Source: Deltaproteobacteria bacterium (lineage in GTDB: Bacteria > Desulfobacterota > Desulfobulbia > Desulfobulbales > VMSU01). Taken from it: a stretch of 41,357 bases of DNA. Below the pieces are notes generated by a model. It saw only the letters and a list, made by a program, of their open reading frames with translations. It made no database searches and had not been told where the DNA came from. Both the position numbers and the translations under genes were made by a program. Shown here piece after piece: positions 62 through 8,714 of the stretch; position 1 is the first letter of the stretch; each line of letters starts with the position of its first letter. The stretch is taken from positions 1-41,357 of the forward strand of contig JAADIV010000194.1 in assembly GCA_013151175.1 (NCBI GenBank). Direction: 5' to 3'.

Positions 62-138
62 GGGGTTGCTTGTCGTGTTTCTGTGGCTAAGCCCAATGCG
101 GGGAAAGTACACGGGCCGAAATTAACTTCTAAGATAAT

Positions 139-290
139 GTAACCATTCAGCGTGGGCAATAAATTACCCTAAACTCAGAAACGTAAGCGTTCAGATGTGC
201 TCCAGGTTCGTCCGTTTTGGCTACCGATGCGTACACCCCGTACGTGAGGTGGACAAAACGGACGAACCTGGGGTGCAGCTTAATGGTTAC
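139..290. mobile_element. MITE-like element, copy 1 (152 bp), IS66-type ends
   Basis: Starts gtaaccattcagcgtg, ends cttaatggttac. Flanked by identical 8-bp direct repeats aagataat (131-138 and 291-298). Contains a 37-bp-arm imperfect palindrome (183-218 / 254-290). Confidence 0.8.
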
Positions 291-308
291 AAGATAATAA
301 TAAAAAAA

Positions 309-5721: not shown

Positions 5722-5997
5722 ATGTCAGATAAGGTTAATTTTATTGCCTATGAAGAGGCGGTGAAACTGGTTGCCAATGTGGTGGAAGAAGAGCATGTTT
5801 ACGAAACAAATCGAAGAATACTAACCGTTTATGGGCATGATGGCCAGGAGCTTTGTTGGTTTGATGCCGAGGAGGTTGTCTCCGAGGTTGGCGGCCAACC
5901 CACAAAACATGACTTCGAGCAGGAACGGGACGAGATTAAAGAGGCGGCAGTGAAGTATATTATGCACCGCATCCCGGATTGGTGTCTTACAGAGTAA
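5722..5997 (+). CDS. Hypothetical small acidic protein
   Basis: 91-aa ORF following dgt on the same strand, AGCGGAG ribosome-binding-like site upstream; no recognised domain. Confidence 0.6.
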   Translation: MSDKVNFIAYEEAVKLVANVVEEEHVYETNRRILTVYGHDGQELCWFDAEEVVSEVGGQPTKHDFEQERDEIKEAAVKYIMHRIPDWCLTE

Positions 5998-6826
5998 TGG
6001 CCAGGTTCTCTACGCCTGGCGGCATGGCAGATGTCTGATCGTGGCCCAGGCAATAGCCGCCGTCCAGACGGATGGCGGCGCCGGTCATAAAAGTGGCGTC
6101 TTTGACCAAGAAGAGAACGGCCCTGGTTACCTCCTGCCGCCTGCCGGTTCTTTGCAGCAGGGTATGGCTGATAATTTCCTGGCGGGCTTCTTCGGTAAGC
6201 AAGTCCCAACCCCTGGTACCCTGAGCGTGTCTGCTTTCTATAAAACCAAGCATCAACTCGTTAACCCGTACCGGGGCTGCCTGCCTGGCCCAGGTTTCCG
6301 TAAATGACGATACGGCCCGATTAGCGGCGGCATAGGCCTCGTTAAATATCATCCCGGCAGGCCCGGCCCGCCCGGGTTCACCGGCGATAGATGAGATGTT
6401 GACCACCGCAGCCTGTTTGGACTTTTTTAGGAGAGGCATAGCCTCTTGGAATACCCACCATTTGGCCTTGAGGGTGGTATCCATCTCCAGATCCCATTGT
6501 TCCGGGGTATAAGACCCGTGGACAATGGGCATACCGCCTCTTTCAATATTATTTATCAGGATGTCCAGGCGGCCGTAGTCATTATCTATCTGCCGGCACA
6601 GCTCTTTAATTTGGTTGGGGTCGCGGAGGTCAGTCTTGACGACCAGATGATGGCCAGGCAGAGCTTGAAATTGTTGGATGGTTTCCCGGCAGGCCTGCGG
6701 CCAGTCGTAATAGGGCAGAATGACATTGGCGCCATCCCCGGCAAAGGTAAGGGCAATGTCCCTGCCGATTCCTCTGGTGGCGCCAAGAACCAGGGCATTC
6801 AGGCCAGCTAAAGACTTAACACACAT
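5987..6826 (-). CDS. SDR family oxidoreductase
   Basis: GATRGIGRDIALTF Rossmann motif, NNIERG, FLVKDATFMTGAAIRLDGGY. Start at 6826 (MCVKSLAGLNALVLG) preferred; the track's extra N-terminus (from 6865) runs into the MITE. Confidence 0.88.
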   Translation of the reverse strand: MCVKSLAGLNALVLGATRGIGRDIALTFAGDGANVILPYYDWPQACRETIQQFQALPGHHLVVKTDLRDPNQIKELCRQIDNDYGRLDILINNIERGGMPIVHGSYTPEQWDLEMDTTLKAKWWVFQEAMPLLKKSKQAAVVNISSIAGEPGRAGPAGMIFNEAYAAANRAVSSFTETWARQAAPVRVNELMLGFIESRHAQGTRGWDLLTEEARQEIISHTLLQRTGRRQEVTRAVLFLVKDATFMTGAAIRLDGGYCLGHDQTSAMPPGVENLAITL

Positions 6827-6847
6827 ACAAGCTTCTCTTAGATCGCT

Positions 6848-7000
6848 GTAACTATTCAGCAGCACCCCATCTTAGCCCATTTAGGCCTTCTCGAATACCA
6901 AAGTATGCTTCGAAGTCCTAAAATGAACTAACCTGGGGTGCTGCTGAACAGTTACGCTCTGGGGTTATCGTTACTTTTAGGCATCACGCTGAATAGTTAC
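6848..7000. mobile_element. MITE-like element, copy 2 (153 bp), IS66-type ends, inverted relative to copy 1
   Basis: Perfect 13-bp terminal inverted repeats gtaactattcagc / gctgaatagttac, flanked by identical 8-bp direct repeats agatcgct (6840-6847 and 7001-7008). Palindrome 6848-6954. Confidence 0.87.
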
Positions 7001-7007
7001 AGATCGC

Positions 7008-8714
7008 TTATCCTTCATTATTTTTCAGGATGAGTTTTAGTCCGGGATGAATGAGGTTATTTTTTAGATTATTCCAACGCTTTATGTTATCGGTATTGGT
7101 GTTGAATTTTTGAGCGATCGTCCATAGACTGTCACCACCCTGCACATTATAATAGCGAATGCTGTTATTCCCGGCACCAGTTAGATGAATTACCAGTTTC
7201 TGGCCGGCCCTGATTTTGTTGATGCTGTGCAGGCCGTTCCAGGACGCAATCATATGAGATTGCGTGTGGTAATGCTCGGCAATTGTCGAGACTGTTTCCC
7301 CCGCTCGAACTCTGTGGATAATGATATTGGGATCCCTGCCGGCATGCACCAGACGTTGACGCTGGGCATATTCTCTCCGGCTGAGCAGGGTGTATTTCGT
7401 CTCTCGATAGGGAATCCGCAGATGCCGCCCCGGAGTTAGTTTGGCCTTGTGCAGGTTATTGGCTTTTAGCAGGGTTGTCAGGCTGATCCGATATTGGCGG
7501 CATATCTTGCCGACGGTGTCGTGGCGGCGGATAACATGGATTTTAAAATGTGTCGAGGTCGCGGCCACAACTCTGGGAAGATTGGCGGCCAATATCTTTT
7601 TTTTGCCAAGCGGCACTTTTACTTCGCTATCCATTGAGGGCGGGGTTATGGCCCGCCGCAGGTGCTGATTCAGGCGGCGGATTGTCTTAAAATCTGAGCC
7701 ACAAGCCAGGGCAATGGCATGGAGAGAGGTCCATGGCGGCACCTCAACGGTATCATAACTCAGCGGCCGATCATATTGCAGATTACGGAAACCGTATTTC
7801 TCCGGATTGGTGGCGATTATTATGGCGGCGGTGAGTTTGGGTACATAACGTTTGGTTTCGACAGTTAAATAGCTGTGCCGGGCGATCTCCCAAAAATCAT
7901 GGGTCTTGTACATCCTGACGGCCCTTGCTATCTTGCCCTCACCAGCATTGTAGGCCGCCACAGCCAAGGGCCATGACTTAAATTGACCGTACAGATCCGC
8001 AAGATAGCGGCAGGCAGCCTGGGTGGATTTGAGAGGGTCACGGCGGTCATCCTCATAATGATTGACCGTTAGTCCATAATTTAATGCCGTGGAACGGATG
8101 AACTGCCAGGGGCCCACAGCCCTGGCCCTTGAATAAGCGGTAAGGCTGTAGCCGCTCTCAATCATCGGCAGATATGCCAGATCTTCTGGAAGCCCCGAGG
8201 CCCGCAATTGGCTTTTGATCATGGGCAGGTAACGTCCTGACCTCACCAACCAACGCCTGAATGATGCAGAATTTTTATGTTGGAAAAAATTAATATAATA
8301 TCTTACTTGGCGGTTGATGGTTACCGGGAAATCATATAATTTTTTTGTCTTGGGCGGCGGTGACGCGGCATTTTCATCCCAAGGGCCAAGGGTATCCAGA
8401 TCCTTCACTTCCTGTGCGGCGGTCTGCTCCGGCTCAGGCGGAGTTTCGTCATCCACTTGTGCCTGAGATTGAACCTCCGGCACGGCGATTGTCCTAGTTA
8501 TCTTGGTTACAGGACGAGAGAGGGAGCCGCTAGCTGTCTGCTGATACGCCGCGCAGGAGCATAAAAGCGGAATGGCGCAGACAGCAGTTATCAGTGTCCG
8601 GCAATAAAATTTAGGATGCGGCATAAAGAATGGTGTGGCAAAGTTAAATAAGATGACATATATAATGTTTTTGGGGACTTGATAAGCAAAGCTCATACCT
8701 TTTCTACATGACAA
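7008..8714 (-). CDS. Membrane-bound lytic murein transglycosylase D-like, SLT domain plus LysM repeats
   Basis: LPMIESGYSLTAYSRARAVGPWQFIRSTA, AVAAYNAGEGKIARA (SLT family 1); three C-terminal LysM-like repeats (HDTVGKICRQYRIS, GETVSTIAEHYHT, GDSLWTIAQKFNTN). Confidence 0.92.
   Translation of the reverse strand: MSCRKGMSFAYQVPKNIIYVILFNFATPFFMPHPKFYCRTLITAVCAIPLLCSCAAYQQTASGSLSRPVTKITRTIAVPEVQSQAQVDDETPPEPEQTAAQEVKDLDTLGPWDENAASPPPKTKKLYDFPVTINRQVRYYINFFQHKNSASFRRWLVRSGRYLPMIKSQLRASGLPEDLAYLPMIESGYSLTAYSRARAVGPWQFIRSTALNYGLTVNHYEDDRRDPLKSTQAACRYLADLYGQFKSWPLAVAAYNAGEGKIARAVRMYKTHDFWEIARHSYLTVETKRYVPKLTAAIIIATNPEKYGFRNLQYDRPLSYDTVEVPPWTSLHAIALACGSDFKTIRRLNQHLRRAITPPSMDSEVKVPLGKKKILAANLPRVVAATSTHFKIHVIRRHDTVGKICRQYRISLTTLLKANNLHKAKLTPGRHLRIPYRETKYTLLSRREYAQRQRLVHAGRDPNIIIHRVRAGETVSTIAEHYHTQSHMIASWNGLHSINKIRAGQKLVIHLTGAGNNSIRYYNVQGGDSLWTIAQKFNTNTDNIKRWNNLKNNLIHPGLKLILKNNEG

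Follow-up and report, generated by a model that had tools for sequence, protein, structure and literature searches.

The 153-bp element at positions 6848-7000 of the window (the whole stretch of DNA that was analysed, 41,357 nucleotides long) is very probably a non-autonomous mini-transposon (MITE) of the IS66 family, served in trans by an ISBst12-like transposase. It is the second of two copies in the window (copy 2; Table 1) and has the properties by which MITEs are recognized: it is a short, non-coding TIR element that contains no long ORF, it occurs in multiple copies, duplications of constant length flank these at independent sites, and relatives carry the gene pair around it free of insert.

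The original prediction had placed an 8-bp duplication, agatcgct, and perfect 13-bp TIRs at the borders of this element, and direct reading confirms both: in the forward strand the TIRs read gtaactattcagc (6848-6860) and gctgaatagttac (6988-7000), perfect over 13 bp, and the flanks at 6840-6847 and 7001-7008 are the same exact 8 bp. Copy 2 is also inverted relative to copy 1, as had been stated, with copy 1 tail-first and copy 2 hairpin-first. The two were said to have arisen by independent transposition, and the different duplication of copy 1 (aagataat, at 131-138 and 291-298) bears this out. Their assignment to a single family holds, with the refinement that they are 64.9% identical and belong to different subfamilies of it; copy 2 has closer kin elsewhere in the genome, at 95.4, 94.7 and 92.1% identity. 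The internal TIR at 6943-6955, the three-TIR layout and the transposase family (IS66/ISBst12-like) had gone unmentioned. An RNase P RNA gene (Rfam RF00010, 304-661, minus strand) lies ~5 bp from the end of copy 1, which sits just past the 3' end of that gene.

Table 1 Features of the two MITE copies and of the genes next to copy 2.
Feature	Position	Strand	Basis or remark
Copy 1, left target duplication AAGATAAT	131-138	.	Sequence
MITE copy 1, 152 bp, opposite orientation; tail 139-182, hairpin 183-290	139-290	-	Sequence
Copy 1, right target duplication AAGATAAT	291-298	.	Sequence
Short-chain dehydrogenase (adh_short_C2)	5987-6826	-	Start taken as ATG 6826-6824
Left target-site duplication AGATCGCT	6840-6847	.	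Read in sequence; 8-bp class confirmed genome-wide
MITE copy 2, 153 bp, hairpin-first	6848-7000	+	Best other genomic copy 95% identical
Left outer TIR (GTAACTATTCAGC)	6848-6860	+	Sequence
108-bp hairpin module	6848-6955	+	MFE -52.7 kcal/mol as RNA; arms co-vary among copies
Third TIR copy, internal (GTAACTGTTCAGC); pairs with the left TIR in inverted orientation and closes the hairpin	6943-6955	-	1 mismatch
45-bp tail with the right TIR at its end	6956-7000	+	Tail length class from duplication-validated copies
Right outer TIR (GTAACTATTCAGC)	6988-7000	-	Sequence
Right target-site duplication AGATCGCT	7001-7008	.	Overlaps the transglycosylase stop codon (TAA) by one base, 7008, the final one of that codon
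SLT-type lytic transglycosylase with LysM domains	7008-8714	-	

The TIR/duplication pattern is not a product of chance: the host, a Desulfobulbales MAG with a draft genome of 2.2 Mb, contains 144 TIR matches with ≤1 mismatch, and the reversed pattern, used as a control, has 1. BLASTN returned 66 matches to copy 2 in this genome. Genome-wide duplication statistics were computed on the fetched loci rather than on every copy. Among these host loci, 24 pairs of outer TIRs lie 140-190 bp apart; 13 of them have exact 8-bp duplications and 18 have duplications with ≤1 mismatch, compared with 0/264 for shifted flanks. The target duplication is exactly 8 bp. It had been argued that other copies without flanking duplications would make the pair at copy 2 a coincidence; most intact copies have the duplication, and truncated tail-only fragments are without it. 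Immediately before one tail-only remnant (L018, G000:C36, near 8382) runs a reading frame that looks, by eye, like the terminal part of elongation factor Tu; its stop codon may come from the remnant.

Neither a plasmid collection searched for the MITE nor an exact-sequence literature look-up for GTAACTATTCAGC gave a match. A scan of named genomes for exact matches to the element end found it only in records of Desulfogranum, Desulfosediminicola, ‘Candidatus Desulfobia’, Desulfobulbus and Desulfocapsa, in Desulfobulbaceae/Desulfurivibrionaceae MAGs, and in records titled only Deltaproteobacteria, Desulfobacterales or Pseudomonadota. The Chunjie MITE of Geobacter uraniireducens likewise has many intact and partial copies in a single genome, one of them inserted in an operon (review PMC10969869); it measures 178-235 bp against 153 bp here, and the comparison covers copy number, insertion in an operon and length.

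The MITE has no ORF for a DDE_Tnp_IS66 transposase, or for any other, and so does not itself qualify as an IS66 element; at most it is a relative of one that is mobilised in trans. Profile searches with PF03050 across the order Desulfobulbales returned matches that fell in two groups: classic IS66 elements of about 2.4 kb with GTAAGCG ends, and single-ORF elements of ~1.6-1.7 kb with GTAAC ends. The MITE TIR, which starts with GTAA, is identical at 13/13 positions to the ends of two complete elements that carry GTAACTATTCAGC at both ends, L272 and L277; the latter is 1712 bp long, with an exact 8-bp duplication (ATTTGTTT) and a 479-aa ORF that matches DDE_Tnp_IS66 (2.7e-40). Two others are close: L278 (1730 bp, exact 8-bp duplication GCCCACAC, longest ORF 313 aa, DDE_Tnp_IS66 match 3.9e-47) has the MITE TIR with one mismatch at one end, and L283 (exact 8-bp duplication GAATATTT) has GTAACTATCCAGC ends, one base different from the MITE TIR. 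The TIR is also near-identical to that of ISDge4, a member of the ISBst12 group with TIRs GTGACTACTCAGCA/GTAACTGCTCAGCA, an 8-bp repeat and one transposase ORF (PMC12898284). The MITE has in common with this group the TIR GTAAC(T/C)(A/G)(T/C)(T/C)CAGC and the 8-bp target duplication. The complete ISBst12-like elements have a single transposase ORF, which the MITE lacks, and they in turn lack the hairpin, third TIR and tail that make up the interior of the MITE. Classic IS66 was considered as the direct partner and rejected, given its TIR (GTAAGCG...ACCCC) and element size of 2.2-2.5 kb; ISBst12-like elements fit better.

Complete ~1.7-kb IS66 elements in relatives have the same 13-bp ends and 8-bp duplications, which argues that the MITE is mobilised in trans by an IS66/ISBst12 transposase. 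Such a single-ORF enzyme would recognise the 13-bp outer TIRs, and the 153-bp element would be inserted at an 8-bp target that is duplicated in the process. Because the host draft assembly holds just an IS66 fragment, the actual mover is one that we infer. PF03050 searches of the host and its genus-mates, all draft genomes, found no intact IS66 with the TIR of the MITE, and two further drafts (G004 and G012) have many MITE copies and no PF03050 match. Repeated IS are often lost from draft genomes. The transposase could also be gone from the lineage, or be of another kind.

The interior of the MITE is conserved as a module. The left TIR and the internal inverted TIR form a 108-bp hairpin, and a tail of ~45 bp comes after it. 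We surveyed this architecture in all fetched loci, taking elements of 95-200 bp with exact 8-bp duplications (n=66, several families). The internal inverted copy of the left TIR is present in 56 of the 66, and the tail measures 44-48 bp in 55 of those 56. Where the left and right TIRs differ, the internal copy is nearer the left in 30 elements and nearer the right in 5. In another family, represented by G012, the same 152-bp layout with exact duplications recurs with the TIRs switched to GTAAGCGTTCACC/GTAACCGTTCACC. This conserved three-TIR hairpin-tail layout distinguishes the MITE family as a new variation. Across 22 aligned copies, 24 pairs of the hairpin have changes on both sides, and the both-side-changed cells number 95, versus 26.7 when shuffled and ≤24 when slid; relatedness of the copies inflates the first of these comparisons and not the second. 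The near-perfect hairpin is probably kept by correction within the element, through template switching or inter-arm conversion, by selection for the folded strand or paired transposase sites, or by both.

The hairpin also occurs without the tail, flanked by exact duplications, in two copies, L128 (107 bp, AAGAAAAT) and L159 (124 bp, of which 17 bp are an insert; GGCTATTT), and these suggest that the internal TIR can act as an alternative end. Together with the tail-only fragments, they could be taken to mean that mobility resides in the hairpin by itself (107-108 bp), the 153-bp form being a composite with a second end or a fragment. We give this little credence: hairpin-only copies are rare, and most validated copies have a tail of near-constant length with the duplication outside it, which makes the outer TIR pair the usual end for transposition. 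The duplication-less tail-only fragments fit with loss of the long palindrome.

An origin by internal deletion of a complete IS was likewise rejected, as the TIR is common to both and the interior is not. Complete elements that end in GTAACTATTCAGC-type TIRs all lack a further, internal TIR close to either terminus; simple deletion therefore does not account for the MITE. MITEs are usually seen as short-lived scraps of one IS; here, one layout, with arms that co-vary and TIRs that have been exchanged, persists in several families of a single order, which makes the survival and structure-keeping of a non-autonomous element testable.

Copy 2 at its site is an ordinary MITE insertion. It lies between two minus-strand, co-directional genes, and a mechanical ORF call starts the dehydrogenase inside the MITE, at 6865; the ATG at 6826-6824 was taken instead. 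The right flank had been described as abutting the transglycosylase stop codon: the two do adjoin, but more closely than that, base 7008 being common to the duplication and the TAA. In the genus-mates G001 and G003 the same gene pair occurs without the element, and the genes nearly abut, with 0-2 nt from stop to likely start (alignment read by eye). Their spacing in the host is 181 nt, 161 nt of which are the element plus one duplication. The site is filled in one lineage and is an uninterrupted gene junction in its relatives. The insertion fell between the transglycosylase stop codon and the ribosome-binding region of the dehydrogenase, which keeps its own leader. The effect at the site is likely small, amounting to 161 bp of added spacing that includes a strong hairpin.

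A position between co-directional genes could also suit an element kept for a regulatory or RNA function, in which the hairpin between the transglycosylase and dehydrogenase genes would work as a leader, a processing site or a terminator and the copies would persist as useful. The very stable fold of the whole of copy 2 (-68.9 kcal/mol, z = -7.4) and its co-varying arms would agree with such a role. However, the element contains no promoter-like sites (0 vs 0.4 expected) and no terminator-like ones (0 vs 0.3 expected), Rfam has no match over it, the genus-mates keep the gene pair without the insertion, and the copies occupy unrelated sites in both orientations. We therefore consider a regulatory function most unlikely, and the proposed promoter read-out from the element into the dehydrogenase gene finds no support in the sequence. 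The reading of copy 2 as a mobile element is preferred.

Many MITE copies contain a precise insert of a 17-bp class, CGGAGTCT-N-CGCTTACC, at various positions and in both orientations; its presence in some copies explains why element lengths increase in steps of 17 bp (107/124, 153/170/187). In longer versions the middle part varies and is often a mini-hairpin; the inserts measure 17-33 bp, with spacers of 1-16 nt. Such inserts occur in MITE hairpins and other repeats at L011, L019, L060, L062, L075, L132, L142, L159, L163 and L172, among others. The host genome has 36 copies; the window has none, even at 3 mismatches. The pattern CGGAGTCTN{0,30}CGCTTACCT is found in 120 of 194 Desulfobulbales genomes, with up to 286 copies each, and the reversed-pattern control had zero matches in every genome. 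In a phylum-wide sample it was present in 9 of 395 genomes, seven of them Desulfobulbales; the two carriers outside the order have 46 copies (G261) and one copy (G398).

Of 99 insertion contexts, 56 have an ungapped counterpart that lacks the insert, with a few self-matches of tandem copies among them. Most of these counterparts are seamless and without target duplication, and a T follows the insert at most filled sites. The nested inserts offer numerous pairs of occupied and unoccupied sites at which a mobile sequence close to the lower limit of size can be compared.

A literature look-up for the 17-bp class gave no exact match, its hits being unrelated human primer or repeat sequence, and CGGAGTCT-N-CGCTTACC is apparently an undescribed ultrashort dispersed element. 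The small dispersed repeats (SDR) of Nostoc-type cyanobacteria and REPINs are also very short, dispersed and often hairpin-bearing. They provide an analogy for the CGGAGTCT...CGCTTACC inserts, from which they differ in sequence and host order. The cyanobacterial SDR are mentioned in PMC3116915. An IS200-type Y1 transposase (PF01797) was considered as the mover of the 17-bp inserts and is not supported, as its content does not track copy number: among incomplete drafts, G004 (219 copies) and G172 (185 copies) have no PF01797 match, and G011, G019 and G053 have 11-13 matches and no copies.

We lean, by a modest margin of belief, towards a joint reading in which the three-TIR mini-element is a long-lived Desulfobulbales lineage that has tracked changing transposase ends with its architecture kept, rather than a recurrent deletion derivative of individual IS copies, and in which its copies serve as landing pads for the new ultrashort CGGAGTCT-(1-16 nt)-CGCTTACC element, which would insert precisely, usually before a T and without target duplication, and be almost confined to the order.

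Several other repeat arrangements were observed. L301 and L302 (G084) contain tandem runs of a 25-bp form, TGGAGTCTCCCTCCGGTCGCTTACC, a local expansion of the ultrashort repeat, and the 51-bp form at L219 resembles one ultrashort repeat nested in another. Also in G084, the repeat family at L296-L315, with GTAACTGCTCACAGGG-type and GTAAGCG ends that resemble IS66-type TIRs, is rich in the ultrashort insert. A second dispersed repeat, with the core ACCGCAGGCATATAGTTGATAT / CCGAGGATAAAATT, is common to several genera (L126, L158, L159, L173, L211, L238 and L239) and repeatedly carries the ultrashort insert at the same spot.
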